DNA from: Acidovorax sp. DW039
GTDB lineage: Bacteria; Pseudomonadota; Gammaproteobacteria; Burkholderiales; Burkholderiaceae_C
Length of the DNA stretch: 64,000 nt
Assembly (NCBI RefSeq): GCF_037101375.1
Contig: NZ_AP029020.1
Coordinates: 62,001-126,000 of the forward strand
Reading direction: 5' to 3'
Below, in pieces: positions 13,575 to 31,615 of the stretch. Below the pieces are notes generated by a model, which saw nothing but the letters and a program-made list of their open reading frames with translations, had not been told where the DNA came from and made no database searches. Positions within the stretch are counted from its first letter, which is position 1. Each line of letters starts with the position of its first letter. A program made the translations under genes and the position numbers.

Positions 13575-13579
13575 TCGCG
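13575..13579. repeat. Right target-site duplication (TCGCG) of the prophage
   Basis: Second copy of the 5-bp duplication. It lies in the receptor N-terminal fragment and pairs with 3714-3718. Confidence 0.75.
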
Positions 13580-13732: not shown

Positions 13733-13753
13733 GGAAGTCTGTGGAACAGAATA

Positions 13754-13774
13754 AAATGAGAATTGTTCTTATTT
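13754..13774. promoter_or_regulatory. Fur box between receptor and AraC-type regulator
   Basis: A near-palindrome ATGAGAATTGTTCTTAT with AT-rich arms (AAAT...ATTT) matches the Fur operator pattern of inverted GAGAAT-type hexamers. It lies 22 bp upstream of the receptor start and about 60 bp upstream of the regulator start, so it could repress both when iron is plentiful. The following repeats AACGGTTTT and AGCGGTTTT (13792-13820) may bind the AraC-type activator. Confidence 0.75.
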
Positions 13775-13832
13775 GATCGTTGGTGCGCTAACGGTTTTCG
13801 GACACGGTTAGCGGTTTTGAGGAGAAATATCG

Positions 13833-14798
13833 GTGGAACGGTACAGCGGTCAAAACAGCGCGTACGAAGAAGGCGGTGCTATCCCTGTGGGCGCTCACCC
13901 GCTGCTGCCCGAAGTGACGCTGCCTGCCGATTGGGCATGTATGGCACGGGTGCATGAGGTCGCGCAAGGCATCACGCTCACCTGCTGGAGCGGCAACCCG
14001 GCCAGCGATCTGGAGGTCAGCGCTAAGGGGCCGCCGATGTTCTGCATCGGTGTGTTGCTAGAGGGCCGCGCACGCATGTCGCTGGATGGTGGGCCTGTGC
14101 TGGAATTGCGCCCCGGCATGGCGGTGGTACAGACGGCAGCCCGGCCCGCTTCAGGGCGTTTTGCCATGCGCGGTGGTCAATCAAGCCGCATGGTGGACAT
14201 CCGTTTTTCGCACGATGGATTGCAGCGGGCAGGAGGACGGCCGCTGGTGGCATTGCAGGGACGCTTTCTGCACGACTGCAGCCTAACCGATGCGCAGTGG
14301 CTGATGGGTGGGTTTCCCGCCCCGGCCGCCTTGCTGCGCGTGGCCAGCGATATCCTGACCTGCGAGTTCGCAGACGAGACCGTGCGCAAGCTCTACCTGC
14401 AGGCCAAGGCGCTGGAGGCGCTAGCCATCGTGCTGCAGACGGTGGGGCCTGCGGCACCTTCGGCATCGCATGCGCGCGAGAAGGTGCGTCTTCTGCAGGC
14501 CCGCCGACTACTCGACGAGCGCTTTGGCGAGGACTGGACCATTGTCCGCCTGGCCCGTGAGGTGGGACTGGGGGAGAAGAAGCTGCAAGCAGGATTTCGT
14601 GCCATGGCTGGCCGGTCGGTGCACGAGCATCTGCGCGAGGTGCGCCTGGCGGCGGCTGCAGCCTTGCTGGCCGATGGCGTCAGCGTGACCGAGGTGGCGG
14701 CGGCCACAGGTTTTGGCAGTCTGAGCCATTTCAGCAAGGTCTTCCGCGCTGAGCGCGGCGTGCTACCCAGCCAGTGGCGCGATGCACGGCCTATATAG
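13833..14798 (+). CDS. AraC-family regulator, PchR-like
   Basis: 321 residues from a GTG with a strong GAGGAGAAAT ribosome-binding site. The N-terminal half is a cupin-like sensing domain. The C-terminal ~95 residues hold two helix-turn-helix units (IVRLAREVGLGEKKLQAGFR and VTEVAAATGFGSLSHFSKVF, with the typical final P(S)QWR). PchR-type regulators sense imported ferric siderophore and activate the receptor gene. Position divergent to the receptor, with a Fur box between them, supports this. The gene is intact, although its main target is broken by the prophage. Confidence 0.85.
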   Translation: MERYSGQNSAYEEGGAIPVGAHPLLPEVTLPADWACMARVHEVAQGITLTCWSGNPASDLEVSAKGPPMFCIGVLLEGRARMSLDGGPVLELRPGMAVVQTAARPASGRFAMRGGQSSRMVDIRFSHDGLQRAGGRPLVALQGRFLHDCSLTDAQWLMGGFPAPAALLRVASDILTCEFADETVRKLYLQAKALEALAIVLQTVGPAAPSASHAREKVRLLQARRLLDERFGEDWTIVRLAREVGLGEKKLQAGFRAMAGRSVHEHLREVRLAAAAALLADGVSVTEVAAATGFGSLSHFSKVFRAERGVLPSQWRDARPI

Positions 14799-14981: not shown

Positions 14982-15605
14982 TCAAATCTCGGTCTGTTCA
15001 TATAGCTCAAGAGCATCGTCAACCTCAATGCCAAGGTAACGGACAGTTGACTCGATTTTGGAGTGGCCAAGTAGTAGCTGGACCGCACGTAGGTTCTTCG
15101 TTCTGCGGTAGATGAGCGTAGCTTTGGTGCGCCGCATGGAGTGCGTTCCATAATCGGCTGGATCCAAACCGAGCTGCAGCACCCAGCGCTCAAGGATTCG
15201 GGCGTACTGACGCGTCCCGAGATGTGGGGACTTGTGGAGTCGGCTCGGAAAGAGAAAGTCTTCTGATTTCAGCTTGGCGTTCTTGATCCATTGCTGAAGC
15301 GCTTCACGGGTGGTCGCTGTTATCTCGAACTGGACGAGGTGACGCGTTTTGTGCTGCATTACCGTCGCTCGAGATGCGACTTGATCGCCATGGCAAACAT
15401 CGCGGACCTTCAGGGCGACCAAGTCGCATCCGCGCAGCTTGCTGTCAATTCACAAGTTAAAGAGTGCAAGCTCGCGAACCCTGTTCTCCATCTGCAGGCG
15501 CACTCGCAGCGCCCAGATGTCTTTGGGCTTGAAAGGCGCCTTCTGACCAACGATCTTTCCCTTATTCCAAGGCTCGCGATGAACGACGGCTGCAGCGGAT
15601 TCCAT
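14982..15605 (-). pseudogene. Tyrosine-type integrase with an in-frame stop
   Basis: Read from the ATG at 15605 (MESAAAVVHREPWNKGK) the frame is interrupted by TGA at 15450-15452, between ELALFNL and IDSKLRGCDLVALKV, and then continues to 14982. Catalytic features of phage-type recombinases are present: the first Arg in KLRGCD, HSMRRTKA (HxxR), GHSKIESTVRYLGI (GH and the Tyr). With one base changed it would be a complete enzyme of about 207 residues. Restart at an internal codon (146-residue open part) would lack the first Arg region. It may be the former integrase of the neighbouring island. Confidence 0.8.
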
Positions 15606-15947: not shown

Positions 15948-16179
15948 AACCTGAAGCCGTCACGCCGTAGGTCTGTTCTGCAGCGGGTGCCGTCATTGGC
16001 AGTCGCGCGCCGCGTTCACGGTGTCGCGCAGGAAGCGGTCGTCTGCCAAAGTGACGGCCAGCCGGCTTCAATGACCGGATTTGAAGGTGCTGCAGTCGTC
16101 CAGCTCAACAGGTCAAAGTGAATCGCCCCGGGGGTCAGTTCATTTCTGCGGAGGCTCCACACTCTGAGAGGATTGAGCC

Positions 16180-16503
16180 ATGAGCAAGTCGAACAAGTTC
16201 TCACCCGAGGTGCGTGAGCGCGCGGTGAGGATGGTGCAGGAGCACCGTGGGGAGTACCCGTCGCTGTGGGCGGCCATTGAATCAATTGCCCCCAAGATTG
16301 GCTGCGTGCCACAAACCCTGAACGACTGGGTCAAGAAGGCCGAGGTCGACAGCGGCCATCGTGCTGGCATGACCATTTCGGATGCCCAACGAATCAAGGA
16401 ACTGGAGCGTGAGGTCAAGGAATTGCGCCGGGCCAAGGACATCCTGAAGACGGCCAGCGCGTTTTTCGCTCAGGCGGAGCTCGACCGCCGACTCAAGTCG
16501 TGA
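16180..16503 (+). CDS. IS3-family transposase OrfA
   Basis: A 107-residue DNA-binding part with an N-terminal helix-turn-helix ([32 protein letters not shown]) and a C-terminal leucine-rich coiled coil ([16 protein letters not shown]). Its stop overlaps the orfB start (GTGA at 16500-16503), so coupling or a -1 frameshift can give the OrfAB transposase. Confidence 0.9.
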
Positions 16504-17366
16504 AGGCCTACATCGACCGCTACCGTGCTGACTACGGGGTCGAGCCCATCTGCCGGGTGTTGCAGGTGGCCCCGTCTTGTTACTGGCGCCATGCAGCCCG
16601 GCAACGCAACCCCCAATTGGGCAGTGCACGCGCCCAGCGTGACGAGAGCTTGAAGGCCGACATCCAGCGCGTGTGGCACGCCAATTGGCAGGTCTACGGG
16701 GCGGACAAGGTCTGGCTGCAGATGAACCGCGAGGGCATCGTAGTGGCGCGCTGCACGGTCGAGCGACTGATGCGTGCCATGGGGTTGCAAGGGGCACGCC
16801 GTGGCAAGACGGTGCGCACCACCGTGCCGGACACATCGGCACCGTGCCCGCTGGACCACGTCAAGCGGCACTTCAATGCCAGCCGTCCCAACGAGCTGTG
16901 GGTGTCGGACTTCACTTACGTCTCGACCTGGCAGGGCTGGCTATACGTGGCCTTCGTTGTGGACGTGTATGCACGCCGCATAGTGGGCTGGCGGGTCAGC
17001 CGCAGCATGCAAACAGACTTCGTGCTGGATGCGCTGGAGCAGGCGCTGTATGACCGCCAGCCTACAGCCCATGCCTTGACGCACTACTCCGACAGGGGCA
17101 GTCAGTACGTTTCCATTCGCTACACCGAACGCCTGGACCAAGCAGGTATCAGGCCTTCCGTGGGTAGCCGGGGTGACAGCTACGATAACGCCCTGGCCGA
17201 GACCATCAATGTGCTGTACAAGGCCGAACTGATTCACCGCCGGGGACCTTGGAAGACCAGGCAATCCGTGGAATTGGCCACCCTGCAGTGGGTGCACTGG
17301 TTCAACCATGTCCGACTGCTCACGCCGATTGGGGGCATCCCTCCGGCAGAAGCTGAGGCAAACTAA
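16500..17366 (+). CDS. IS3-family transposase OrfB (DDE integrase)
   Basis: 288 residues with an HTH_21-like start and an rve integrase core: D in [11 protein letters not shown] in [10 protein letters not shown] in [16 protein letters not shown], matching the DD(35)E catalytic triad. Length and order are those of a full IS3 orfB. Nothing suggests inactivation. Confidence 0.92.
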
Positions 17367-17405
17367 TGGAGGCAACTCGCCGTCAGCGACACCTCGCCAG
17401 AGGCG

Positions 17406-17789
17406 TCAACTTAAACCAACCGGCCTCCTCAAAACCCGGGGCGCTTCATACTGCAGGCGGCCCGAGATGTGAGCCGGAACATCGCAGGGTTCGAGCAATA
17501 GGGGGATGACGTATATGTCGGTTGGCTGCTTGTATCTGAGACGCTCGATGGCATCGTTTGCCTCGCGCTGCACAAAGCCTCGTTTGTCGACGCTTCTCTT
17601 GCTCAGAAGCAAGACAACTACATTGGCTTCACTGAATGCACGCTCAATTTCTGCCTCCCAGTTTTGGCCGGGAAGTAATTTTTTGACGTCCATCCAGGGC
17701 TCCGCTCCCTCTTGGGCGAGGAGCTCGTAATACTGCAGGGCGCGACCCCTATCTTCCTTCGCGTAGCTAACGAATACCTTCAAGGCCAA
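17406..17789 (-). pseudogene. TIR-domain protein, C-terminus cut by an IS
   Basis: From a TTG at 17789 with a good GGAGG 8 bp upstream, about 113 native residues form a bacterial TIR domain: KVFVSYAKEDRGRA (box 1), WMDVKKLLPGQNWEAEI, VVVLLLSKRSVDKRGFVQRE; the Glu in QREAND is at the place of the NADase catalytic Glu. After GRLQYEA (about 17449) the frame is IS sequence and stops at 17406. TIR proteins of this type usually have a further domain or act as immune effectors by NAD+ depletion. Loss of the C-terminus may inactivate it. An attC-like site lies just upstream, so it may be an old integron cassette. Confidence 0.75.
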
Positions 17790-17937: not shown

Positions 17938-18228
17938 GAGAACTAAACCAACCACCGGGCAGGGGAATGCCAGTGAGAGAACATAACCACCGGAAGCCGT
18001 TGGTGCGATTGGGTTCGTTGCCCTGACCGCTTTCGCGAACCGGGAATTCCGCGATTGGCGGGGCAATCTGGAGTTTCGGCCAAGAAGCTGGCGTCGGAGG
18101 CGGGTCGAATTCGGGATTCTTTGCCGGGTGGCGGCCGCGAAATCTCACATTTCCGCCTGGCGATTTCTGCGAGGTTGGCTGGGCGCAACAACGGGGCGCT
18201 CCGGGTACCCCGCCGCCACACGCTCCCC

Positions 18229-20412
18229 TTAGTTCTCGAGCGCCAGCCTCGCGAGCTTCTCCAGCACGCTCATCTTCGAATTGTCGCCACCGACCAGGAC
18301 TCCGTTGGTCATGGTGTGCAGGTACAGCTGCACCAGAGGCAGGTCCAAGAGGCCGGCCATCGTGAGCGCCCCACCGGCACCGTAGTGCATCACGTCTCGC
18401 ATTCCGGAGAGCGCATCGCCCGAGCCGCTGACACCGCCCTCTGGGGGCACGAACACCCGCACGTACGTCCCGCAGTCCTGCACGGGCATGCGCAAGCCCA
18501 CCCGCTCGCCGTGCTTTGCGTGCTCGGGTTTGAGCATGGAGATGTAGTACGGGAGCAGGTTGAACTCGCGCCCCTTCGACAGAAATCGTGCCTTGCTTCC
18601 TTCCTCACGCCGCTCGGCGAGGTGGCCGTCCTGAGCGGCAATGGCGTGCTCGATGCCTTCGTAGGCGTCGTTCAGGATGATTTTGGGAACAAAGGCGCCA
18701 GCCCAGACGGTCAGGCGCTCCCTGGTGGCTTGGTCGACCACCCAGAACTGGCCGTCGCGGACGGCGTCCTTGCCTTGCTCCTGCAGGAAGTCGTACTCGA
18801 ACACCAGATCCAGCACTGCGCCGCTGTTGCCCCAGGGCGTGCGGCGCACGCGAACAACTTCGATGGTGTCGCCGAGCACGCGCACGTCGACCGCGGCAAT
18901 GGTTTGCTCAGGGTCCGCGCGGCCGGGGAGGCGCGTGCGACGGGTAGCCAGCAACGTGAGGCTCGCCGGCGTACCGGGCGGCATGGAAGGCACCATGACC
19001 GGCTTGCGACCGAGGAGCACTTCCTTCAGGGACAGCTCCACCAGGCAGCGCTTCAGGGCCTCCTGCAGCTGTCGGCCTTCTGCGTTGTCAGCCTTGCCCG
19101 GCCGAAGGGACGCCAGGTCCTTGGGACCGTAGTCAAGGCCTTGTGTCGCCACCACGAAGGTGTCACGGGCGAGCAGGTGCCGGTACTTGGCCTCCGTGTA
19201 GGGGTCAGCCTTGCCTTCGCCTTTCGCCAGCGCCGTATAGGCGGCTGACGTCTTCGCGGGCTGAAGCTCGGTGGACGGTGCCTTGGCCAACCGGACGCTC
19301 CCCAGGTCCTCGTCACCCTGGCCGTTCAGGAAGAGGTAGTTGACGTTGGGCAGGAGCTCGTCGGGAACCGCGGCGGCCACTTGCAGGTCAGGTGCAGGAA
19401 AGTGAGTCTTCTTGCCGCCGGCGATGTGGTAGCCCGGAAGGTACTCAGGGAAGCGCGCCAGCGGCGCCAGCGCGTCGGCGTCCAGCGCTTCAGCCGTGGC
19501 GTTCACCACGGTCAGAGGCTGCTGCAGGCTGGCCAGCGGCTCTAGCGGGATGTAGGCGTCATCCACGCAGTGCGTGGCGGCGAAGGTCTCGCGTGCGAAC
19601 GGGACGCCAGCCTTGGTGAAGAGCCGGATGGCGAACTCGGTCAGAAGGTTCAGGTAGTAGAAGCGCGACCGGCGAATCTTGTCTGTGTCGAGGCTCAGCC
19701 CCTCCATCGGCGACTTGCGACCGTCCTGCTCGAAGAATTCGTCTGGAACGATGCGGGTCACGCCAACGAGGAAGCCCTCGCCGGCGCTGGCCAGTCGGGT
19801 AGCTGCCGCCGTCTCGGCGGACGCGGTGGCTTTGCGTGAAAACCGCTTGGCGGTGACATCACAAAGCAGGAGTCCGTGCTTCGTGTTGACCGAGTACTCC
19901 GCCTCCGCCAGCTGCAGGTATTTTTTCGAAGCCTGGCTGGCGCTTCCCAAATACACGCCGGGTCCGAACCCGCCACCGACGAACGTGTCCTGCGCATCCA
20001 GGGCAGACGATTCAATCAGCTCTTTCAGCAGCATCAGCTCGATGAACTTGCCCGGGCTGCCTGCCACGGCGTCCAGCATCGTCTGAGCGTCGAGCCTCGG
20101 CCGCGGTCCCAGGTACCACGCGTCCTTGCTGGACATGGAGAAAGACAGCTTCAGGGCTGCGTCGCCGTCAAGACCCAGCTCCTTGGCAATCTGCACTCGC
20201 ACGAGCTTCGCGCGGTGTCGGAAGAAGCTCACCCCCTTGGGCGAGTCCTCCGTCGCTCTTGGCAGCGGGATAGCAATCGGGACCAGCAGGCTGCCCTGGG
20301 TGGCCTGCCACCTCGCAAGTGCACGGGCGGCCTCGGCGACAGGCACGGTGAACCGCAGCGCGCTCAGGCGGGCGTGCGCAACCTCGTTGGGGTCAAGACG
20401 GCGAATCGGCAT
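18229..20412 (-). CDS. Large unrecognised protein, last gene of the island operon
   Basis: 727 residues from the ATG at 20412, which overlaps the helicase stop as TAATG; I reject the longer frame to 20811, which is antisense-shadow sequence of the helicase gene. The protein is soluble with mixed alpha/beta predicted content and no signal peptide. Visible segments: GKFIELMLLKELIESS with GGGFGPGVYLG at about 125-165, IAAVDVRVLGDTIEVVRVRR at about 530, and a C-terminal HYGAGGALTMAGLLDLPLVQLYLHTM. I could not assign a fold or enzyme class. The 4-gene order suggests a partner of the helicase-nuclease, perhaps a sensor or scaffold, but that is inference. Confidence 0.75.
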   Translation of the reverse strand: MPIRRLDPNEVAHARLSALRFTVPVAEAARALARWQATQGSLLVPIAIPLPRATEDSPKGVSFFRHRAKLVRVQIAKELGLDGDAALKLSFSMSSKDAWYLGPRPRLDAQTMLDAVAGSPGKFIELMLLKELIESSALDAQDTFVGGGFGPGVYLGSASQASKKYLQLAEAEYSVNTKHGLLLCDVTAKRFSRKATASAETAAATRLASAGEGFLVGVTRIVPDEFFEQDGRKSPMEGLSLDTDKIRRSRFYYLNLLTEFAIRLFTKAGVPFARETFAATHCVDDAYIPLEPLASLQQPLTVVNATAEALDADALAPLARFPEYLPGYHIAGGKKTHFPAPDLQVAAAVPDELLPNVNYLFLNGQGDEDLGSVRLAKAPSTELQPAKTSAAYTALAKGEGKADPYTEAKYRHLLARDTFVVATQGLDYGPKDLASLRPGKADNAEGRQLQEALKRCLVELSLKEVLLGRKPVMVPSMPPGTPASLTLLATRRTRLPGRADPEQTIAAVDVRVLGDTIEVVRVRRTPWGNSGAVLDLVFEYDFLQEQGKDAVRDGQFWVVDQATRERLTVWAGAFVPKIILNDAYEGIEHAIAAQDGHLAERREEGSKARFLSKGREFNLLPYYISMLKPEHAKHGERVGLRMPVQDCGTYVRVFVPPEGGVSGSGDALSGMRDVMHYGAGGALTMAGLLDLPLVQLYLHTMTNGVLVGGDNSKMSVLEKLARLALEN

Positions 20413-23400
20413 TACTTCCCCAGAACCGCTTCGCGGAGGTTGGCGTTTGGCATCCACAGGTCGGTGCCGGTGTTCGGCACGTACAGGGACATGAACCGAA
20501 TGGTTCCGGCCGGCGGCTTGGTCACCGCAAACTTGTGGGCGCCAAAGAGGTTCACGTACAGCGCATGTACTTTGTGGTCGGGAAGGAGCTCGCGCAGGCG
20601 CTGGTGCTTCTTCTCGGCTTCTTCCTGGAGCTGCTGCTTCTTGAAGCTGTCGGTGCTGCGCGCCCAGTTCTTCAGGTCCACAGCCACCAGCACGCCGGGC
20701 TGCGGCACGAGGTAGTAGTCGAACAGCTGGTAGAGCTCCGCGTAAAGCGGGTGGTCCGCAAGGGGCAGGTACTCGACCGGGCCGCCACCCAGCTGCAGGC
20801 TCTTCGGCCACACATTGAACTGGGCTCCGATGTACTGCTCGAACTCCAGCTCCGCGACGTACCCCTTCATGATTTCAGTCACGAACCAGGGCTGCGGCAG
20901 CAGGCGCTTGGTCTTGTCCGCGAGCTTGAAGCCGCGCCACTCCTTCAGCAGGCCTTGCGTGCTGGACGACAGCTGGCTGATGAGCCCTTCCGGCGCCACC
21001 ATGCCAATCCAGTTGTAGGCGTCAGCACCGTCCGCAGCGTCCGTGATGACCCGCTCCACCATGCCCGCGGCACCGAAGTCGACGGTGTACGCGTCTGCCA
21101 TGGCTGGCACCTCGACGAAGCAGCCGTCCCGGTACTCTGCGGGCATCCCGGCAGCTGCGAGCTTCTCCAGGTACTTCAGCGGGTCGCTGAACATCAGCGA
21201 ATCGAACATGCGCTGCCAGGTCGTGCGCGCTGCCGGGTCGGAACGGAAGCGCGCCGGCGTCTGGCTGGTGAACTTCCGGAATGCGACTGCCTTCTTGAGG
21301 CTGTCCCGGTGGTCGGCCTGCCGCTTGTCGTCAGAGGGGAAGATGCCGGTCTCGATGTTGTGCACGCGAATCTGCTCCAGCACCGCGCGCTGGGCGGGCG
21401 ACGCCCGCTTTCGCAGCTCCGGCGCATGCCGCAGTCCCAGGTGCACCATGCGTGCCGCTTCTGAGCTCACGTACAGGTGCTGCGTCGGCATCTGCTCGTT
21501 GGAGCGCTCGCCGCGCCCCAGCGCCTGAAAGACGGTTCGCGTGATGTCGATGAAGTGCTCCTTGCGCAGCCGGCGCCACTTGTTGCGCGAGTACTCGAAC
21601 AGCAGGTCGCCCTTCGACATGGACGCCCAGTTCTCGTTCTCGTCCCGAATCACCTGGGCGAAGCTCTGGAACATCTCCATCGAGAAGCCTGCGGACCCAG
21701 GGCGCGTGTGCCGGGTGTAGTACGGGTCGTTCAGCAAGCAGAACAGCTCAAAGTCCTGCTTCTTGCCGTGGTGGCGGGTCAGGAAGTTGATGCCGCGCGA
21801 CGCTGACTTGTAGGCAGTCCACAGCAGCAGCTTCTTGTTGCTGATGTCCAGGGCCTTCTCGAGGTCCTCGCTGAATAGGCCCTTGTCATCCTCTTCCTCG
21901 AGCGCGCCCGTCTTCGTCTTGTCACGCTTGCGGAAGCGCGCGGCGGAGTACAGGACGACCGTGATGTCGTCGGTGGGCCCGAAATCACGGTAGCTGGGAA
22001 GCGCGCGCGGGTGGATGGTGAAGAGCTCACCCGTCGTGTCGTTCTGGGTCACCAGCCCGGTATGCTGGTTGGCCAAGCGCATCAGGCACTTGCGCACGTG
22101 CTGCGTGGTCTGGCACAGGACCAGGCCCGAGCGCATCGACGTGGACAGCATCTTGTCGAGGCTTGCCACCAGGCCGGTGAGTTCGTCGCGCTTGTAGCTG
22201 TTCATCTGCGCATAGCCGGGCTCATCCTTCTTCGGCCTTGCGTCTTCGAACACCTGCAGCAGGCCCTTGAAGCTGCGAGAAACGGCGAAAGTTCGTGCCG
22301 GGTCGCGGTCGTCCAAGATGACGACTTTCCGCTCACGCCGTTTGAGCTGCTTCTCGGCATGAGCGGACACCACCTCCAGCTCGTCCTCTCCCATTTCGGC
22401 GAACAGGCCGCCGCGGGATTCCAGGCACCGCTTCAGGTGCTGCGTGTTGAAGGCGCCAGACGACGCGGACTGAAGGCCGCCGGTGGCGCTCATCAAGTAC
22501 ACGCCGTTCGTGCGGCCGAGTGCGTGAACGATGTCTTCTTCGGGGGTAGCACGCAGCGACGTGATGGTCAGCGTCAAGCTGACGTCCGCCGTCATGTTGT
22601 ATTCCTCGTGCTGGTTCCGGCTCTCCTCGAGCGTGACCACGCTCTTGGTGTCCTTGAACAGGAACGTGTCCGTCAGCAGCTCCTTGTCGCTGGTCTCAGC
22701 CGCGAGGCCTTCCTCCGTCGCGCGACCATCGAACAGACGACGAACGTCGGAGCGGAAGCGGTCCAGGCTCGGGTAGCGCTCCTGGTCGGTCTTGGACATC
22801 TCGATGGCGTTCTCGCCGCTGGTGGCGGCCAGCACCGACGCCATGAAGACCACCAGGTTCAAGTAGTCGAGCAGCGTGAACGCGTCCGCAGGCACGTCGC
22901 CGTCGTGGTAGTCCAGCCGAATGGTCTGGTGGGCGGTGTCACGGGTCAGCTGCACTTGGCGCAGGAACTCCGTGTCCATGACGCTGGCGGATTCTGTGAA
23001 GAACGTCTGCCCGGGCTGGTCCAGGACCTCGCCGTAGGTCGACCGGCTCATGGTAAAGAACTTCTTATTGGCGACCAGCTCGTGCAGGTCCCGGAAGGTC
23101 TCGTAGGCGGTGCTGCCCTGGCGCGTGATGGTGAGGACGTAGTCTCGGATGCGCTTGAGGACCCGGGCCTTCTGCCGGAACCGCTTGAAGTCGGCGTGGG
23201 CGTCGTTGCGGTCATGGAGCTGCGCAAGGACCAGCAGCAGCTCGTTGTCATCGAACCGAGTGGCCGTTGCCGGTGCCTGGGCGGTCAGGTGCTTGCGCAG
23301 GATTTCCACCCGGCGCGCGTCGTTGATGTACTTCGCGCTGGTGCGGGACACCTCCATCGCGAATTCATCCTCGACGGCCTTGCTGACTAGTGCGAAGTGC

Positions 23401-24530
23401 TCAAGGTGGTCGTACACCTTCGTGGCCAGGGCGAGGTCCGTCGGGCCGTCGCGCCGCAGCTTTTCGAAGGCCATGGGCCAGCGCAGGTCGAAGTACTGGA
23501 AGAACTCGGAGATGACCAGGTTCAGGTCGTTGCGCCCGCCGGAGTTCACCACGGACTTGCGCTGGTCGAAGAGGTACCAGTAGGAGTCTTCTTCCTCGTC
23601 GACGAAGGTGACGACGCGGGCGGAGTCCGGCCGGCCAGAGACCAGCCGGCCGAAGTAGCTGCCGTCCCGGTTCAGTTCTTCCAGGAAGAGCGGCAGGTTG
23701 TCGTACTTGTGCGCCTTGAAGCCGCCCTTGCCGTCAGGACCGTAGACCTGGTGGCCGACCTGCGCCTTGGAGGCGGTGCTAACGATGACGCCCGGGTTGT
23801 CGAGGAAGGCCTGCAGGGGGTGCAGCCGGCGAACCAGTTCAGCGACTTCCTTCGCCCGCATGAACCGGTCGGCGTCCTGCTTCAAGTGGCGCGTCTCGAC
23901 GTCCAACTTGATGAGACGCCAGACCAGGCCGTCCGCCAACGTGCGGGCCCGCTGTGCGGCCTTGATGTAGGCCGTTCGGGTGTCCTCGTACGTGTCGTCC
24001 GAGGTGGCCATGGTCAGGAAGTTTGACTTCTCGCAGTAGAGCGCCTTCTGCCGGAGCTCGTTGACCCGCGCGCGAACGCTCTTGTCCGTGTCGGCGTGCT
24101 TGACAGATGTCTCCAGCCGCGGGAACAGGTTCTGGTGCCGCTCGAGCCAGCCGACGAGCGCCAGGCAGGCTTGGAAGAAGCTGCGGTCGTTCAGGTGGTA
24201 CTCGATTGAGTACAGGCGGTGCATGGGAATGGCGAAGCCCCGCTCCTTGATGGCGGCTTCGATTTCGTCGGCGTACTCGCCCACCTTCTGGTGCTTGGCC
24301 AGTTCGTCGCTGAAGCCGGCAACGAGCGACTGCAGCGGGGCGATGAACACCGGGATGACATCGCACTTGGTGAACAGCTCGATGCTGAACGCCGCGGCGG
24401 TGTAGGTCTTGCCGAACCCGGTGTACCAGTTCAGCAGTTTGACGAAGGGACGCTCAGAGGCCTTGAGATACGGCTCCTTGAAGCCTCTCTGGAAAATAGC
24501 GCTGGCGGTCCTGGGGATCTTGAAGCTCAT
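20412..24530 (-). CDS. SF2 helicase fused to a PD-(D/E)xK-like nuclease
   Basis: 1372 residues. Helicase motifs in order: NWYTGFGKTYTA (Walker A, about 34-45), IAPLQSL (Ia), TFVDEEED (Walker B, 308-315), YLMSATGG (motif III, 678-685), GLVLCQTTQH (IV, ~801), LLWTAYKSASRGINFL (V, ~901-916) and a QVIRDEN segment near VI. The C-terminal ~150 residues contain E.EFEQYIGAQF, LFDYYL and VAVDLKNW (about 1270-1289), which fit D...DxK of the PD-(D/E)xK nuclease fold. The start overlaps the stop of the preceding gene (ATGA) and the end overlaps the next start, so all three are translated as a unit. An ATP-driven DNA-processing and cutting role, as in restriction-like defence, is the best reading. Confidence 0.8.
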   Translation of the reverse strand: MSFKIPRTASAIFQRGFKEPYLKASERPFVKLLNWYTGFGKTYTAAAFSIELFTKCDVIPVFIAPLQSLVAGFSDELAKHQKVGEYADEIEAAIKERGFAIPMHRLYSIEYHLNDRSFFQACLALVGWLERHQNLFPRLETSVKHADTDKSVRARVNELRQKALYCEKSNFLTMATSDDTYEDTRTAYIKAAQRARTLADGLVWRLIKLDVETRHLKQDADRFMRAKEVAELVRRLHPLQAFLDNPGVIVSTASKAQVGHQVYGPDGKGGFKAHKYDNLPLFLEELNRDGSYFGRLVSGRPDSARVVTFVDEEEDSYWYLFDQRKSVVNSGGRNDLNLVISEFFQYFDLRWPMAFEKLRRDGPTDLALATKVYDHLEHFALVSKAVEDEFAMEVSRTSAKYINDARRVEILRKHLTAQAPATATRFDDNELLLVLAQLHDRNDAHADFKRFRQKARVLKRIRDYVLTITRQGSTAYETFRDLHELVANKKFFTMSRSTYGEVLDQPGQTFFTESASVMDTEFLRQVQLTRDTAHQTIRLDYHDGDVPADAFTLLDYLNLVVFMASVLAATSGENAIEMSKTDQERYPSLDRFRSDVRRLFDGRATEEGLAAETSDKELLTDTFLFKDTKSVVTLEESRNQHEEYNMTADVSLTLTITSLRATPEEDIVHALGRTNGVYLMSATGGLQSASSGAFNTQHLKRCLESRGGLFAEMGEDELEVVSAHAEKQLKRRERKVVILDDRDPARTFAVSRSFKGLLQVFEDARPKKDEPGYAQMNSYKRDELTGLVASLDKMLSTSMRSGLVLCQTTQHVRKCLMRLANQHTGLVTQNDTTGELFTIHPRALPSYRDFGPTDDITVVLYSAARFRKRDKTKTGALEEEDDKGLFSEDLEKALDISNKKLLLWTAYKSASRGINFLTRHHGKKQDFELFCLLNDPYYTRHTRPGSAGFSMEMFQSFAQVIRDENENWASMSKGDLLFEYSRNKWRRLRKEHFIDITRTVFQALGRGERSNEQMPTQHLYVSSEAARMVHLGLRHAPELRKRASPAQRAVLEQIRVHNIETGIFPSDDKRQADHRDSLKKAVAFRKFTSQTPARFRSDPAARTTWQRMFDSLMFSDPLKYLEKLAAAGMPAEYRDGCFVEVPAMADAYTVDFGAAGMVERVITDAADGADAYNWIGMVAPEGLISQLSSSTQGLLKEWRGFKLADKTKRLLPQPWFVTEIMKGYVAELEFEQYIGAQFNVWPKSLQLGGGPVEYLPLADHPLYAELYQLFDYYLVPQPGVLVAVDLKNWARSTDSFKKQQLQEEAEKKHQRLRELLPDHKVHALYVNLFGAHKFAVTKPPAGTIRFMSLYVPNTGTDLWMPNANLREAVLGK

Positions 24531-26218
24531 TTGGCTTCCTCCTCGTCCCCGTTTAGCGAACCAGAGAACGCATTTTTCGTCCCCCGGGGCACTGACTCCG
24601 CATAGTCGATGTCCAGGAGCAGCGCCCGGCAGGCCCGGATGTAGCGCTCCTTGCCGTCCTTCCCGTTCCGGGTGACCCAGCGGGCAAGCGTGGTGAGCCC
24701 GCCGTACGCGACTAGACCGAGCTTCGCCAGACCATCAAGGAGGTCCTTCCCGGCCCCGGCGCTAATCAGGTAAGGGCTGTGCCGCGGCATGACGAAGTTG
24801 ATGGGCGCGTCGTCGTCCCGAGCGTCCATCCGCAGGGAGACGCAGAAGCTGTTCACGAGCTCCTGCGCCTTCTCTGCGCGCTCATCGTCCAGGCCTCTCG
24901 GCATGATGGGCTCGACGTCTTCAATGCGCGATACCAGCGCTCGCTGCAAGCCATCGTCCTGGAGCAAGGCGAGTTGCTTGCGCGCCGGCAGCAGGATGAA
25001 CGACTGCGGGTCGTCGGCGTTCAACTCTGTCGACAGGTTCTCGAACGCGCGCAGGCTGAGCTTCTCGCCGGTCTTTCGCATACCGAGCGCCTGGTCGACG
25101 ACCTCCCGCGGAACGCGGTCAGCCAGGACATGCGCGGACACCGCGCCCCAATGCACCATGACATCAGGCCGTTCTGAGTCGAACACCTGCATCCGACGGA
25201 CGGTGTCCTCCGGAACCATGTAGTTCCGGTTCCGGACGATGCGGTTGCGACGGCGCAGCAGCTTCGCGGTTTCGTCGCGGGTCAGCTCTCGCGTGGCAAT
25301 CTGAGGAACTGCTCCACCCGTCGACCGCAACGTCTGCAACTGCCACCGGTACCGCTTTGTGGGCGAGCACACCCAGTCCAGGCCGTCCAGCTCAATCGGC
25401 GATGCGGGCTCCAGGTGGCTGTCCTCCATCAGGTTCACGAGCTCGCGCCAGCACTGAAGCTCGTTGCCCCGTGCCACTTCGGCCGCCGAGTACGGTCCCG
25501 GGTCGCAGTCCAAGACGACAAGCTCGCTGTTGAGCGGGTCGTCTGGGTGTCCCTCCGGATGGGGGTTCTGAAGGCAGTACTGAATTGCGGCCACGCCGTC
25601 GACGATTGCCTGGTGCTCGGATTCCTCGAACCGCCGGCGCACGCGTTCGGCAGCGGTCACCGCGGCGCGCAGCTGGCTGGAATCATCCATGTCCCACACA
25701 ATTTCCAGCAGCGGCACGCGTCGGCCAACTGCGTTGTGGGCCTCGAGGAGGGGCTGTTGGATGCCCAAGGCGCCCGGCATGAACACGAACCGGTAACTCC
25801 GGAGCCCCTTCGCCTTGATGTCGCCAAGGAAGTAGTCGGAGATGACGTCTACCGCGTCGTCCCAGTCCTCGAGCTCGCGATTCAGCCAGGTGGCGGCATG
25901 GAAGCGAAGGGAGAGGGGCTTCTTCGTGGAAACTGACCCGCCCTCATGCCAGCTCTTGAAGCCGGCGAGTTGCGCGGCGAGCTGGAGGGCGTTGGTGTGC
26001 TTAAGTGCGATGCCCCGGGCCTGCAGGGCCGCTCGCAGCTGCTTTGCGAGCGCCTTGACCTCAGACCCGGGCTGCAGCCCGAGGTCGCGAACGATTGCCA
26101 GTGCGTCAGCGCTGGAGAACCGAGGGGTTTTGAGTTGGACGAAGGTCCACAGCGCCATGGCGCGGGACTCGTCATCGAGAGGATGGGCGGCGTAGGCCGC
26201 AGAGGCAATGGCTGTCAC
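24527..26218 (-). CDS. Island protein B, paralogue of the upstream gene
   Basis: 563 residues from a GTG with GGAG seven bases upstream. The N-terminus (ALWTFVQLKTPRFSSADALAI at about 22-42, then LAKQLRAALQARGIALKHTN) ends in a segment AGFKSWHEG. This resembles the small 'glyoxalase-related' domain that I recall from Pfam (Glyoxalase_8); the assignment is from memory. The middle (SELVVLDCDPGPYSAAEVAR; ELTRDETAKLLRRRNRIVRN) aligns with the neighbour gene. No membrane segment. The pair must have arisen by duplication together with the leader. Function unknown; the ATGA overlap with the helicase argues for a shared complex. Confidence 0.78.
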   Translation of the reverse strand: MTAIASAAYAAHPLDDESRAMALWTFVQLKTPRFSSADALAIVRDLGLQPGSEVKALAKQLRAALQARGIALKHTNALQLAAQLAGFKSWHEGGSVSTKKPLSLRFHAATWLNRELEDWDDAVDVISDYFLGDIKAKGLRSYRFVFMPGALGIQQPLLEAHNAVGRRVPLLEIVWDMDDSSQLRAAVTAAERVRRRFEESEHQAIVDGVAAIQYCLQNPHPEGHPDDPLNSELVVLDCDPGPYSAAEVARGNELQCWRELVNLMEDSHLEPASPIELDGLDWVCSPTKRYRWQLQTLRSTGGAVPQIATRELTRDETAKLLRRRNRIVRNRNYMVPEDTVRRMQVFDSERPDVMVHWGAVSAHVLADRVPREVVDQALGMRKTGEKLSLRAFENLSTELNADDPQSFILLPARKQLALLQDDGLQRALVSRIEDVEPIMPRGLDDERAEKAQELVNSFCVSLRMDARDDDAPINFVMPRHSPYLISAGAGKDLLDGLAKLGLVAYGGLTTLARWVTRNGKDGKERYIRACRALLLDIDYAESVPRGTKNAFSGSLNGDEEEAK

Positions 26219-26451
26219 TGATGAGCTCCATACGGAAAGCCACTCGGGACGGCACGCGTTGTCCGGCTTTCCTGAAACTCACCAAGCCGGGATTCGATTC
26301 GGTACTACCAACTGGCTTTGCCGGTTGCTCGGGGCCGCACCACCGAGCTAGCGTGCACTGACAGGCGCCAACTTGCCTACGATTCGGCTACGAACCGCGC
26401 TTTGATATTACTGAAATTGCTGAGGCGGAGCAAGCCTGCCCCGCTTTCAGG
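26219..26451 (-). promoter_or_regulatory. Duplicated non-coding leader, copy 1
   Basis: This intergenic stretch shares blocks with 28117-28338. GACAACGCGTGCCGTCCC (18 nt, minus strand, 26246-26263) is identical and starts 28 nt upstream of the start codon in this copy, 29 nt in the other. GGCAAGTTGGCGCC (26364-26377) is also identical. A third block (26381-26398) forms a small hairpin, seven pairs in copy 2. The spacing between blocks differs by only 9 nt. Both copies precede a GTG start with GGAGCTCA. A structured leader, an operator for autoregulation or a small RNA are all possible. Confidence 0.65.
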
Positions 26452-28116
26452 TCACTCAGGCTGAATGTGCAGGTACAGGGCGTGCCCGAACGCGAACGGC
26501 GCGACGTTCGTGCCCTTGAACTTGTCACCCAGGTCGTCGAGCGGAAAGAAGTTCGGGAGTACGCCGGCGTAGACCACCAAACCGTGCTCCTTCAGCGTCA
26601 GGCGCAGCTCCTCGCCGTCGTGGGCGTGAACAAGCAGCGGCAGGTCGTGTTCATCCGCAAACATGCCGACTTGGCGCATCTTGCGGACCCGTAGGTTGTC
26701 AATGAGCTCCTCCACGGCCTCCCGCACCACGGGCTTCTTTTCTTCAGACACGTCGTGGGTCCGGTAGCGGACTGTGTCGACACGCGGCAGCAGCGTGCGA
26801 AGTACGAGGTCGTCATCGGCGCGTGCCATCTCGGAGATGTTCGGTCGGGCGAAGAACTCATTTGGCTTCTTGGGGGACAGCAACTCCGCGGCGCTCATGA
26901 TGAAGCCGACCGGCAGCTCGGCCTGCATCGTCTCCTTGACTCCCATCGCTTCGCAGAGGCTTTCCCACGTATGCCCGGCGGCCTTTGCGGCCAGCAGAAG
27001 TCGGTGCAGGTCCACGCGGTACGTTTCGCGGGGACCGCCCAGGTACTCGACCCGCTTCAGCACCTCGTGGTGCCGCACGCGACCAGAAAAGATGTTTTTG
27101 ACCAGCCGAAAACGGCGAAGCAGGCGCTCCGTGTCCTCTTCGTTCAATTGGCGCATCTCGAGGCCGGGGACGTACTCCTTCGGCCGGATGATGTGCAGCT
27201 CCCACGTGTATCGGGTGTCTCCAATGACCCAGCTGCGGCCGTCCACCTTCGCAGAATCGGTGCCGCCACGGTCGCTCGAAGCCAGCTCGAGCTGAGCCCA
27301 GCACGTCATTTCGTCTCCACGCGCCATCTCGAACGCGTTGTGCGGGTTCAGTTCGTCGTCGTCGCGCAGCAGGACCAGTTCTGCGTTCGGGGCGTCCCCG
27401 GTGACGCTTGCGCGGCCGAGGCCGAAGGCGTATTTCGGGTCAGAGTACCGCTGCAGCAGCTGCATGACGGCGATGCCTTCCAAGGCGGCCACGCCACGTT
27501 CTTCCAAGTGCCGACGCAGTGCTTCAAACGCACTCGGCGCGGCCTCAAGCCACTCGCTGCGGTCGTCGCGGGGTCGAAGGGTGAAGATGGGGATGTTGGT
27601 GAAGTCGCCCGGCCTATCCGGTCCGCGCGACTCCGGCGTGCCGACCATCACGTAGTCCTCGCCGACGTGCACCTTGAAGGTCTTCACGGGCGACTGCGCG
27701 TAGCGGAGGTCGCACCAGTGCGCCATGCGCGGCACGGCTTCGCGCCAGGTGGCAAAGGTCTCGACCTTGCCCAAGTATTGGTCCACTCCGTTCCCAGAGC
27801 CTGCAAGTACCGTCAGTTCCAGCGTCGGCTCCGGGCCGTTGTACTCGGACTCGTGCCAGTTCGCCGCACCGAGCATCCGGGCAGCCGCCTCTAGGCAAGC
27901 CGTGTGCTTGATTCGGATGCCTTGGCGCTCCAGCAGCGGCTTCAGCCGCTTGGCCAGGTGCTTCAGGTCTTCCCCGGGGAGCGGCTCAAGGTTGTTGACG
28001 ACCGCGAGAGCGGTCTGCGATGAGAAGCGTGGCAGCTTCGCCTGGACGTAGGTCCAGAGAGCGGCAGCTTGCAGTTCGGGGGACAGCGGCGCGCGCGGCG
28101 CCTTCACTTTGGCCAC
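26452..28116 (-). CDS. Island protein A, first of the paralogous pair
   Basis: 554 residues from a GTG preceded by GGAG. It is homologous to the next gene over much of its length: ALWTYVQAKLPRFSSQTALAV with LAKRLKPLLERQGIRIKHTA (N-terminus), LGAANWHES at about 85-93 (glyoxalase-related-like end), NAELVLLRDDDE...AFEMARGDEMTCWAQLEL and LNEEDTERLLRRFRLVKN in the middle. By eye the N-terminal 85 residues are about half identical and the rest is weaker, so they have diverged in specificity. Soluble and acidic, with no catalytic signature that I can name. It is the first long gene of the leftward operon. Confidence 0.78.
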   Translation of the reverse strand: MAKVKAPRAPLSPELQAAALWTYVQAKLPRFSSQTALAVVNNLEPLPGEDLKHLAKRLKPLLERQGIRIKHTACLEAAARMLGAANWHESEYNGPEPTLELTVLAGSGNGVDQYLGKVETFATWREAVPRMAHWCDLRYAQSPVKTFKVHVGEDYVMVGTPESRGPDRPGDFTNIPIFTLRPRDDRSEWLEAAPSAFEALRRHLEERGVAALEGIAVMQLLQRYSDPKYAFGLGRASVTGDAPNAELVLLRDDDELNPHNAFEMARGDEMTCWAQLELASSDRGGTDSAKVDGRSWVIGDTRYTWELHIIRPKEYVPGLEMRQLNEEDTERLLRRFRLVKNIFSGRVRHHEVLKRVEYLGGPRETYRVDLHRLLLAAKAAGHTWESLCEAMGVKETMQAELPVGFIMSAAELLSPKKPNEFFARPNISEMARADDDLVLRTLLPRVDTVRYRTHDVSEEKKPVVREAVEELIDNLRVRKMRQVGMFADEHDLPLLVHAHDGEELRLTLKEHGLVVYAGVLPNFFPLDDLGDKFKGTNVAPFAFGHALYLHIQPE

Positions 28117-28338
28117 AGTTGAGCTCCTTCGGGGAAGACACGTAGGGACGGCACGCGTTGTCTGGCCTTCCGGGAGTTCAAAGAGCCGGGGTCGGGGTAC
28201 TGCGTCTCAACTGGGCTTCACCGTGCCAGGAGAACCTGGTGCGTGCGCTGATGGGCGCCAACTTGCCCGCGGTTCGGCTTGAACCGCAGGCAGATGGTAT
28301 TCAACGACCGCTCTCGCTGTCAACGAAGCCTTGGTGAA
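28117..28338 (-). promoter_or_regulatory. Duplicated non-coding leader, copy 2
   Basis: Partner of the 26219-26451 leader. The 18-nt block is at 28145-28162, the 14-nt block at 28254-28267, and GCGGTTC-GGCTT-GAACCGC at 28271-28289 (hairpin of seven perfect pairs). The hairpin loop (GGCTT) is nearly kept in copy 1 (GGCTA), and the arms differ there by one unpaired position. The promoter for the operon should lie upstream of this, near 28290-28340. Confidence 0.65.
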
Positions 28339-28791
28339 CTACTTGTGCGCCTTCGCGGCCGCAAGCATGCCGACCAACGAATGCCTTGCGAGCTGATTTC
28401 GTTCAGCCTTAGCGCCAGCGAGCTCTTTCACGACGCCCAGGGCTCCGCCTCCCAGCGCCCCGATGGCCGCGCCAACTGGCGTTGCCACGGCGGAGACGGC
28501 GGCGAGCGCGGGCAAGAAAGACATGGCGCCTCCGGCCAAGCCGCCCATCGCAGTGGCGGCGGCCACGCCGGCGACTTTCGGCCAGTACTTCGCTTTGACT
28601 TCCTCCATTGCCTTGGCATGTCGCTGCACGAGGGATGCAAGTCCGTGGTTCACTTCCTTCACGACATCGTCCAATTCGAGTGGCCTGGCTGATGCGAGTT
28701 GGGCCGTGTACTTCTTCAGCTCCTCTCGAAAATTGACCACCTCCAGGTTCCTGCGCATCTCCACAAGGCCAACTTCCGGTTTGAAGTGCAC
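28339..28791 (-). CDS. Small protein with two hydrophobic glycine-rich segments
   Basis: 150 residues from a GTG at 28791 (an ATG 11 codons later is also possible). An N-terminal charged helical half (NFREELKKYTAQLASARPLE) is followed by two membrane-like stretches (about 73-95 and 97-120, Gly/Ala-rich) and a basic tail. An in-frame stop lies 9 bases upstream of the GTG. It reads toward the island operon 222 bp before it, so it may be its first gene. The N-terminal half could also be the C-terminus of a longer lost protein. Confidence 0.5.
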   Translation of the reverse strand: MHFKPEVGLVEMRRNLEVVNFREELKKYTAQLASARPLELDDVVKEVNHGLASLVQRHAKAMEEVKAKYWPKVAGVAAATAMGGLAGGAMSFLPALAAVSAVATPVGAAIGALGGGALGVVKELAGAKAERNQLARHSLVGMLAAAKAHK

Positions 28792-29005
28792 AGCGGACGT
28801 TTAGTCAGATAACAGGCCAACGTCTGGTATCGGCGGCAGCGGTCACAGGCTTGCCAAATCTCAGCGGCTGCAACCAGCCTCAAACGGTCGGTCAGATAGT
28901 CTTCAATCAGGTATTCAGTAGGCTAGGAGCGCCCAGCTGAAAATTCTAGGACTCACCGCGCTCTACCCTGCAGGCGAAGGCACGTGTGGTGCCGCAGTGC
29001 TTTCA
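28792..29005. other. Intergenic region, right border of the island
   Basis: I see no gene, repeat or RNA here. The stretch separates the island operon from the polB locus. Confidence 0.4.
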
Positions 29006-29086
29006 TCACAGCCATGCCCAAATACGGCGCAGAAACGCAGGGGCGGGTCGTGCGGGTCGGAATACGTAGCGGCAGAGATTGTTCAT
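29006..29086 (-). CDS. 26-residue basic peptide divergent from polB, under a LexA box
   Basis: The ATG at 29086 has an excellent ribosome-binding site (GAGGAGAAAGCC directly before it). The peptide MNNLCRYVFRPARPAPAFLR ends in RIWAWL: six Arg, three Pro and an aromatic end. It is too short for usual ORF calling. The LexA-type operator lies 25 bp upstream of its start, so it should be DNA-damage inducible together with polB. The Arg-rich, Trp-ended composition recalls small membrane-active or regulatory peptides, but no homologue is known to me. Confidence 0.5.
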   Translation of the reverse strand: MNNLCRYVFRPARPAPAFLRRIWAWL

Positions 29087-29110
29087 GGCTTTCTCCTCGT
29101 AGGTTTTAAA

Positions 29111-29130
29111 TACTGTATATAAAATCAGTA
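29111..29130. promoter_or_regulatory. LexA (SOS) box
   Basis: TACTG-TATATAAAAT-CAGTA has both outer half sites identical to the enterobacterial LexA consensus with the correct 10-bp spacer; only the spacer departs from alternating TA. It lies 82 bp upstream of polB and just upstream of the divergent small ORF. Confidence 0.8.
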
Positions 29131-29212
29131 TTTCGTGCAAGGTCGTCCCAATATTTCTCAATCGTCCCTCAAAATTCTGCAGACTCTGCCCTAGCGTCTT
29201 TCGTTTCACCTA

Positions 29213-31615
29213 ATGTCCCCGGCCCCCAAACCCACCGAACTCCGGGGCTTCCTACTCACACGCAACTGGCGCGATCTACCAGACGGCACCGAGATCGAGT
29301 ACTGGCTGGCTACCGACCAGGGGCCGAAGAAGGTGCTTCTGAAGCAGCAGACCTCAGTTGCCTTCCTCCCAGTCCGATACAGGGCCGCGGCACAGGTCCC
29401 ACTGGCGAGCCTGCAGGGCTTGGAGGTCAAGGAGCTTGGTCTAAAGACGTTCGGCCAGAAGCCTGTCCTTGGCGTCTATGCCCGCAGGTTTCGCGATCTC
29501 GGCAAGCTGGCGCGCGCACTTCAGCCTCTGGGGATACCGCTCTACGAAGCGGATGTCCGCCCACACGACCGCTACCTGATGGAGCGGTTCATCACGGCAG
29601 GAGTTCTGGTCGAGGGCGGCCAGCGCGAAGGTTCGACCATCCTCGACGGCAGATTGAAACCCGCTTCTGGTTGGCGCCCGGTGTTGACGGTGGTGTCGCT
29701 GGACATCGAGACGAGCGCGACCGAGGATCTTTACTCCATCGCACTGGATGCCGCGGGCGACCGAGTGGTCTTCATGCTGGGGGAGACGCCAGCGCGAGCT
29801 TCGGTGTCGGAACCAACTGTGCCACCGATGGACTTCAGGCTTGTGTACTGCTCAACTCGCAGGGCGATGATCGAGCAGCTCAATGCCTGGTTTGCGGACC
29901 ATGACCCGGATGTCATCGTCGGCTGGAGCGTGATCCAGTTCGATCTGCGGGTGCTGCAGAAGGCGGCCGATGCGAACTCCGTGCAACTGCTGCTCGGGCG
30001 CGAGCGCCGCCCCATCGTGTGGCGTACGCACCCCGGCCGTCAGGGCTACCTGTTCGCGCCCATGCCCGGGCGTGTGGTTGTCGATGGCATCGAAGCACTG
30101 CGGGCGGGCATGTGGAGCTTCCCGTCTTTCAGCCTCGAAGCGGTCTCGCAAGCACTGCTGGGCGAGGGCAAGGAGATCGGAGACGCTTACGACAAGATGG
30201 CGGAGATCGAGCGGCGCTACCAGGAAGACAAGCCCGCGCTGGCCAGCTACAACATCCGCGACTGCGCGCTCGTCCTGCGCATCTTCGAGAAACTGGAGCT
30301 GCTGCCGTTCGTGCTGGAGCGAGCTGAGACGACAGGCTTGCAGATAGATCACTTCGGCGGCTCCATCGCCGCATTCAGCCACCACTACCTGCCGCGCATG
30401 CACCGCCTGGGCTACGTGGCACCCAACGTGGGTGACATCGCAGCCAAGGCTTTCCCTGGCGGCTATGTGATGGACTCCACCCCGGGCTTTTACGATTCCG
30501 TCGTGGTCCTGGACTACAAGAGCCTGTACCCCACCATCATCCGGACCTTCCTGGTGGACCCGGTAGGCCTGGCAGAGGGCGAGAGCGCCAACATCCAGAC
30601 CGGGTTGGTGCAAGGGCCACAAGGCACGCTGTTCTCGCGCGAAAAGCACTGCCTGCCGGACATCGTGACCATGCTCTCGAATGCCCGGGACGAGGCCAAG
30701 CGGGTGCGCAACCAGCCTCTCTCGCAGGCCCTGAAGCTGCTCATGAACTCCTTCGCCGGTGTGCTGGGTGCATCCGAGTGCCGTTTCTTCAACCCGAAGC
30801 TGGTGTCTGCCGTGACCCTGCGCGGCCACGAGGTGATGAAGCTCACCCGAATGTTCGTGGAGGAGCGCGGATACCAAGTCATCTACGGAGACACCGACTC
30901 CATCTTCATCTGGCTCAAGCGCACCTACCCCAACGCGGAGGCGCACGCTATTGCGGCCGGCTTGGTGCATGAGATCAATGCCTGGTGGACCCGCAAGCTG
31001 CGTGAAGAGCAGCAACTGGAGAACTTCCTCGAAATCGAGTTCGATACCCACTACGCCAAGTTTTTCATGCCCACCATCCGAGGATCGGATGTCGGTAGCA
31101 AGAAACGCTACGCCGGCCTGAGCGTCGATGAGGAGGGACGGGAGGAGATGGTCTACCGTGGGCTGGAAATGGCCCGTAGCGACTGGACCCCACTGGCACG
31201 CCAGTTCCAAGATGGCTTGCTGTCACGCATCTTCCACGGCGAGCCCTATCAGGCGTTTGTGACCGACTACGCGCGATCCATGCTGGATGGTCAGATGGAT
31301 GCGCTGCTCGTCTACCGCAAGCGTCTGCGCCACCGGCTCGATGCCTACGAGGTCAACGTACCGCCCCAGGTGCGTGCGGCCCGCATTGCTGATGCACACA
31401 ACGCGAAGTTGAACCGTCCTCTGCAGTACCAGCGTGGTGGCTGGATCGAGTACGTGATGACCCAAAGTGGCCCCGAACCATTGGAGGCGCGGCATTCTCG
31501 CATTGACTATGAGCACTACCTCGTCAAGCAACTGCAGCCCATTGCCGATGCGATTCTTCAGCCGTTGGGGGATAGCTTTGTAGGATTGACCAGTACGCAG
31601 AAGGCGCTTTTTTAG
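29213..31615 (+). CDS. polB: DNA polymerase II (family B)
   Basis: 800 residues, close to E. coli Pol II (783). Exonuclease motifs: SLDIETSA (Exo I, DxE), VGWSVIQFDL (Exo II) and YNIRDCA (Exo III). Polymerase motifs: DYKSLYPTII (A), LKLLMNSFAGVLG (B) and YGDTDSIF (C). All catalytic acids are present, so it should be a proofreading polymerase for replication restart and lesion bypass. The LexA box upstream fits its known SOS control. The start is an ATG at 29213 without a strong ribosome-binding site. Confidence 0.95.
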   Translation: MSPAPKPTELRGFLLTRNWRDLPDGTEIEYWLATDQGPKKVLLKQQTSVAFLPVRYRAAAQVPLASLQGLEVKELGLKTFGQKPVLGVYARRFRDLGKLARALQPLGIPLYEADVRPHDRYLMERFITAGVLVEGGQREGSTILDGRLKPASGWRPVLTVVSLDIETSATEDLYSIALDAAGDRVVFMLGETPARASVSEPTVPPMDFRLVYCSTRRAMIEQLNAWFADHDPDVIVGWSVIQFDLRVLQKAADANSVQLLLGRERRPIVWRTHPGRQGYLFAPMPGRVVVDGIEALRAGMWSFPSFSLEAVSQALLGEGKEIGDAYDKMAEIERRYQEDKPALASYNIRDCALVLRIFEKLELLPFVLERAETTGLQIDHFGGSIAAFSHHYLPRMHRLGYVAPNVGDIAAKAFPGGYVMDSTPGFYDSVVVLDYKSLYPTIIRTFLVDPVGLAEGESANIQTGLVQGPQGTLFSREKHCLPDIVTMLSNARDEAKRVRNQPLSQALKLLMNSFAGVLGASECRFFNPKLVSAVTLRGHEVMKLTRMFVEERGYQVIYGDTDSIFIWLKRTYPNAEAHAIAAGLVHEINAWWTRKLREEQQLENFLEIEFDTHYAKFFMPTIRGSDVGSKKRYAGLSVDEEGREEMVYRGLEMARSDWTPLARQFQDGLLSRIFHGEPYQAFVTDYARSMLDGQMDALLVYRKRLRHRLDAYEVNVPPQVRAARIADAHNAKLNRPLQYQRGGWIEYVMTQSGPEPLEARHSRIDYEHYLVKQLQPIADAILQPLGDSFVGLTSTQKALF

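Follow-up and report, generated by a model that had tools for sequence, protein, structure and literature searches.

Genes C and D look like a diverged DdmDE pair in predicted fold

A 64,000-nucleotide (nt) stretch of Acidovorax sp. DW039 (contig NZ_AP029020.1, positions 62,001 to 126,000; hereafter the window) contains four long minus-strand genes, A to D (Table 1). An earlier note, made from the sequence alone, had presented them as a candidate undescribed four-gene operon for defence. All four open reading frames were verified at their positions, together with their junctions: the B-C overlap reads ATGA, the C-D overlap reads TAATG, and A and B are separated by 233 nt without overlap. A to D are real genes because they are conserved in families of relatives. 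The family of B contained 22 proteins, that of C 74 (E ≤ 0.01) and that of D 138 (120 of these listed), each query being counted; for C and D, scoring was restricted to the 7,993 candidates with the most words in common. In their modelled structures, C and D look like a strongly diverged DdmDE pair.

The helicase motifs noted earlier in C were present (motif I TGFGKT at residues 37-42, DEEED at 311-315, SAT at 681-683, QALGRGER at 1002-1009), as was its C-terminal D...DxK end (E1227, D1271, D1285-x-K1287). In an alignment of 44 rows, the key residues showed no variation or were conserved to at least 90%. The structure model of C covered residues 173-1372, the first 172 residues being left out. 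Its 19 best PDB matches were all DdmD, followed by a DinG; the DdmD match spanned helicase, insert and nuclease, and there was a wide gap before DinG. The AlphaFold2 model of D was a full-length Argonaute, and its four best PDB matches were DdmE. The PIWI domain of DdmE is catalytically dead. A sequence alignment of 42 rows showed no conserved acid in D residues 482-500; D is probably slicer-dead.

The DdmDE link of C and D came from folding alone; all sequence routes gave none. Neither PADLOC nor NCBIfam matched any of A to D at E ≤ 1, and PHROGs gave weak matches only. In Pfam, C had a weak ResIII match (E 0.0091, below cut-off). PADLOC scans of family members also returned weak matches only: Cas5 in 1 of 42 D rows, and, among 11 C rows, PbeA in four and pPIWI_RE_REase, PprPIWI, Cas3c and ZorB in one each. 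The earlier description of the operon as undescribed is supported at the sequence level only, since the modelled C and D show the DdmD and DdmE folds.

C and D form a rare, linked core

We compared 13 distinct C loci, namely L009-L019, L028 and the window; the entries L020 to L023 are duplicates of the window, L012, L015 and L028. D lay directly after C in 11 of the 13, window included. The C tree (12 rows) and D tree (11 rows) had five well-supported groups in common; they disagreed on L010/L012/L013 and on L028, where support in the D tree was weak. C was found in 3 of 299 genomes of the family, and D in the same three. Counts for C were 2/399 in the order, 1/369 in the class and 1/47 in the genus, the own genome being included every time, and 1/150 in the family of genome G675. 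The C-D pair is rare and patchy. A phage or virus origin of C was considered and rejected: C was absent from the phages collection and from viral_contigs, where none of nine pattern matches was confirmed.

A and B are accessory genes

A and B are paralogues, as had been proposed (28% over 524 amino acids (aa), E 2e-40). The similarity ran along most of their length and not through a shared N-terminal module alone. B matched Glyoxalase_8 (PF20066) at E 4.5e-6 over residues 52-91 only, and A at E 1.7e-4, below its cut-off. The likeness to Glyoxalase_8 proteins was confined to about 40 N-terminal residues (positions 9-48 of 143 in the family), and no further Pfam match tied A or B to glyoxalases. 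An A/B profile gave one weak match in PDB (E 1.6).

Intact A/B-type genes occurred at 5 of 13 C loci (two each in the window, L012 and L014; one each in L010 and L015), and these loci fall in three branches of the C tree. The gene preceding C also overlapped it as ATGA in L012, L014 and L015. L016 retains a remnant left by a deletion, and L010 has a short remnant besides its intact gene. In L010, L015 and L018 the contig edge lies not far upstream of C, so that further A/B genes may lie beyond it. At the eight loci where intact A/B-type genes were missing, C-D was intact in six, the others being L018 and L019. The four-gene operon of the earlier note is therefore not a general unit.

Genes of this type also occurred away from C-D. 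An A-like gene without C was present in 3 of 72,556 plasmid records, all Variovorax (26% identity over 98%). One of these records, a plasmid of Variovorax sp. SRS16 (L039:7630-10584), was read for its neighbourhood and scanned for the leader described below; the A-like gene had a leader, and the gene preceding it was annotated as a glyoxalase superfamily protein. Genome G077 carried two A/B-module genes with leaders of their own (L038:5701-7377 and 12219-14072). These shared only the N-terminal module with A and B (BLASTP, E ≤ 1e-3), and one of them had DUF6035, DUF7830 and weak CoiA_nuc matches. Because they are often missing beside C-D and are also present without it, A and B are accessory and C-D is the core.

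A conserved RNA leader precedes A and B

Two conserved elements of ~190 nt, missed in the earlier note, run up to the start of A and of B, respectively. In the locus comparison they shared 72-83% identity with their counterparts in L010, L015 and L016, and they had no match in Rfam 15 at E ≤ 1 (window 18000-29200, 4227 families). A model, R1, was built from nine leader copies. Over 19 sources (396 kb) R1 found those nine copies only, with none in the seven C loci where neither an A/B gene nor a remnant is present, of which L018 and L019 are short. Genome scans, in which 150 of 344 to 580 first-look candidates were scored per genome, gave the known copies in four genomes plus two more, both in G077, and no copy in G675, where C-D is present and A/B absent. 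The twelfth copy precedes the Variovorax A-like gene, whose locus was found via protein similarity; a blastn search of the plasmid collection with the leader of B found none. The leader pattern was absent from viral_contigs. Each of the 12 copies stops where an A/B-type gene, or the remnant of one, begins.

Across the 12 copies, 94.2% of 430 cells paired, compared with 32.3-40.0% when the columns were slid by 1 to 3. Of 37 pairs, 13 were changed on both sides; shuffles gave 4.5, and none of the 500 reached 13. These counts lean towards the model, because the alignments were fitted to it. The long-range helix P3 was 100% paired and had three doubly changed pairs. In the 42-nt region of hairpin P4, the nine training copies taken singly behaved like shuffles (48 to 886 of 2000 reached their score); with P3 as the anchor and the scores of 11 copies added together, P4 scored 158 against a mean of 67.4 (standard deviation 18.3), and none of 2000 single-base shuffles reached this value. 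The second L038 copy lacks the P4 stem. The RNAalifold covariation term was near zero (-0.06) in the first alignment, in which the P4 hairpin was misaligned. In the last hairpin, UUCC pairs with the Shine-Dalgarno GGAG. These computations established the conservation and covariation of the leader, which probably controls translation of A and B.

Replicon and neighbourhood of the operon

The replicon of the window (contig C2, 364,914 bases) has parA at its beginning and a Rep3 initiator 2.8 kb further, and therefore looks like a plasmid. A replication type of the RPA family was also considered and was not found in the genome, whereas Rep3 was. The integrase fragment, insertion sequence (IS3) and TIR gene reported earlier as flanks were all confirmed (Table 1). 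There is also support for the proposal that a helicase-nuclease system lies here in a mobile or defence setting.

Table 1. Positions of the operon genes, leader copies and flanking features in the window.
Feature	Position	Strand	Size or score	Description
Gene A	26452-28116	-	554 aa, GTG start	Accessory paralogue, N-terminal module as in B
Gene B	24527-26218	-	563 aa, GTG start	Accessory paralogue, Glyoxalase_8-like N-terminal module
Gene C	20412-24530	-	1372 aa	Predicted DdmD-like superfamily 2 (SF2; XPD/DinG-type) helicase with C-terminal PD-(D/E)xK-type nuclease
Gene D	18229-20412	-	727 aa	Predicted DdmE-like full-length Argonaute, probably slicer-dead
Leader RNA copy before B	26219-26417	-	R1 183.6 bits	One of nine training copies; conservation elsewhere; base-pair covariation
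Leader RNA copy before A	28117-28306	-	R1 178.7 bits	Training copy
Integrase fragment	14982-15422		E 2.3e-17	Phage_integrase
TIR gene	17406-17789		E 2.3e-21	
IS3 transposase	about 16143-17450			

Shango, BREX or transposition genes adjoined C-D in 7 of 13 loci. Shango stood beside C-D in five: SngA-C was complete in L009 and L013 (PADLOC) and in L011 (tblastn), L017 had part of SngA and L019 part of SngC. The Sng genes had the same direction as C in all five and lay on either side of it. Nothing in the window or in L010, L012, L014, L015, L016, L018 or L028 matched a Sng gene, though several of these are short or at a contig edge, and A/B and Shango shared none of the 13 loci within the flanks examined. 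Strong SngB matches (E < 1e-160) occurred in 7 of 299 family genomes (13 at E ≤ 1e-3), and the own genome had no SngB. BREX genes BrxA-B-C lay beside C-D in L028. Downstream of C-D in L010 (9006-16293) were TniB-type transposition genes (TniB E 3.5e-28; the rest identified by eye), and this pair may ride on a Tn7-like element.

Other genes were observed nearby. A 150-aa gene upstream of A (window 28339-28791, minus strand) had a weak LeoBC match (E 1.8e-5) and no Pfam match, and a gene for DNA polymerase II (family B) adjoins the operon (window 29213-31615, plus strand). The same replicon carries a second defence gene, a full-length MkoA (Mokosh; NERD-kinase-superfamily 1 helicase; L029:4218-9098, PADLOC E 0), which on C2 lies about 2.9 kb ahead of the start of the window and about 21 kb from the operon. 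A GmrSD-type gene (L031:8301-10355) lies near its replication genes; L017 also holds a GmrSD gene. Next to D in L015 was a 1404-aa protein (8750-12964) with a PIN-TPR-GreABC PIN domain (E 6.4e-19).

Discussion

The computations showed the folds predicted for C and D, the linkage and patchy spread of the two genes, and the conservation and covariation of the leader; we infer guide use, a plasmid target, strand hand-over, DNA degradation, all A/B roles and the action of the leader. We consider it likely that C-D is a deeply diverged DdmDE for guided DNA destruction, with A and B as accessory genes whose translation is probably set by the leader. D, a guide-loaded and probably cleavage-dead Argonaute, would locate foreign DNA, most likely plasmids, and pass the strand, once opened, on to C. 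This SF2 helicase, which has a nuclease at its C-terminus, would then move along the DNA and degrade it. Guide-based finding by D and destruction of DNA by C are proposed because of homology, and C-D is probably a guided, DNA-destroying, anti-plasmid defence. Leader RNA probably sets A/B translation through GGAG/UUCC pairing, and its control might be feedback by the A/B N-terminal module, or a ligand.

Like the DdmDE systems of Vibrio cholerae and Lactobacillus casei (PDB titles), the pair has a gene for a DdmE-fold Argonaute adjoining one for a DdmD-fold SF2 helicase-nuclease, in an island or mobile setting. It differs in lacking sequence similarity detectable by HMMER, in the length of C (1372 aa, compared with solved DdmD chains of up to 1190 residues), and in its optional A/B genes with RNA leaders and its frequent Shango neighbour.

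Several results weigh against this assignment. Template-modelling (TM) scores of D against the DdmE rows were moderate (0.40-0.46 by query); those of C were low (0.24-0.30), with a root-mean-square deviation of about 20 Å, which may reflect domain movement. Motif I of C is supported by sequence alone, because the model omits the first 172 residues. Searches of PDB with C and D by phmmer, and by profile hmmsearch at E ≤ 10, matched neither DdmD nor DdmE, and PADLOC gave no DdmDE match, the presence of DdmDE models in that PADLOC copy being unconfirmed. At two loci D did not follow C: in L019 C is broken and D absent, and in L018 C is intact but the contig stops 334 bases later, with no D start recognisable there. 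C was not found in the plasmid collection (72,556 records), in which a gene of a Comamonas sp. C11 plasmid (L027:11995-13239), between aromatic-degradation and transposase genes, matched D residues 320-727 only (60%). A plasmid-like replicon is an odd home for an anti-plasmid system unless it is aimed at rivals. For the leader, further pair types numbered 25, compared with 23.5 in shuffles (128 of 500 as high), and single-copy thermodynamic folding was unremarkable (z -1.62 and -1.46).

The lack of sequence similarity to DdmDE would also fit a pPIWI-RE-type or other separate Argonaute-helicase-nuclease lineage, for which DdmDE is merely the nearest solved structure. pPIWI-RE systems combine a PIWI protein, a DinG-like helicase and a PD-(D/E)xK nuclease, and C-D has all three; DinG/XPD were the next folds for C, and pPIWI_RE_REase (E 0.0067) and PprPIWI (E 0.012) were each matched weakly by one of 11 C rows, beside PbeA in four (best E 0.0025). 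However, helicase and nuclease are separate in pPIWI-RE, whereas C holds both in one 1372-aa chain, as DdmD does. The DdmD match spans helicase, insert and nuclease far ahead of DinG, the best matches of D are DdmE, and the order C then D is that of ddmDE. We regard a separate lineage as quite improbable. An obligatory four-part machine with A and B as sensors or specificity factors, as the earlier note proposed, is equally hard to credit. The ATGA overlap of B and C, found likewise in L012, L014 and L015, and the presence of A/B-type genes at five loci from three C-tree branches agree with it, but intact A/B genes are missing at eight loci, six of them with intact C-D, and A/B-type genes with leaders exist away from C-D. 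An accessory or regulatory role fits at least as well, because A and B are dispensable, occur on their own and have their own RNA leaders.

C-D could also be an extension of Shango (SngA, SngB, SngC), with A/B as a substitute elsewhere; we find this unlikely. Shango, complete or in part, adjoins C in five loci and in the same direction, strong SngB matches are confined to 7 of 299 family genomes, and A/B and Shango never stood together in the flanks examined. Yet A to D match no PADLOC model, the own genome lacks SngB, and the window and seven other loci, several short or edge-bound, gave no Sng match; L009 and L011 are close relatives, so that independent cases are fewer than five, and co-mobilisation in islands would look alike. 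The leader, instead of being a translation switch, could act in trans as an RNA that A and B bind and that works as part of an RNA-protein complex; this is possible, if somewhat doubtful. All 12 copies stand directly before a gene or remnant with the same module, even where the remaining protein differs, and this module is the sole part common to the L038 genes and A and B. Against it, the 3′ end pairs with the ribosome-binding site and stops at the start codon, which is what a cis-acting leader would be expected to do. Leaders that mask the ribosome-binding site include riboswitches and autoregulatory leaders; this one resembles them as a conserved multi-helix RNA whose last hairpin pairs with the Shine-Dalgarno sequence before the start codon, and differs in having no Rfam 15 match. 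There is a small chance that it represents an undescribed structured-RNA class, the dedicated partner of the A/B N-terminal module, forming a portable RNA-protein unit that diverged DdmDE recruited as an RNA-bearing regulator or sensor of invading plasmids or phages, exchangeable for Shango.

If C-D is a diverged DdmDE, such a lineage, which the sequence searches here did not connect with the DdmDE of the two species in PDB titles, points to a wider spread of Argonaute-guided DNA elimination than profile searches reveal. The replicon suggests that a plasmid can carry such elimination, perhaps against rival plasmids. The leader is a conserved RNA with compensatory changes before accessory genes of what would be an Argonaute system. 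That the partner is A/B or Shango, and never both in the 13 loci within the flanks examined, raises the question of what DdmDE may need beyond its two core proteins.

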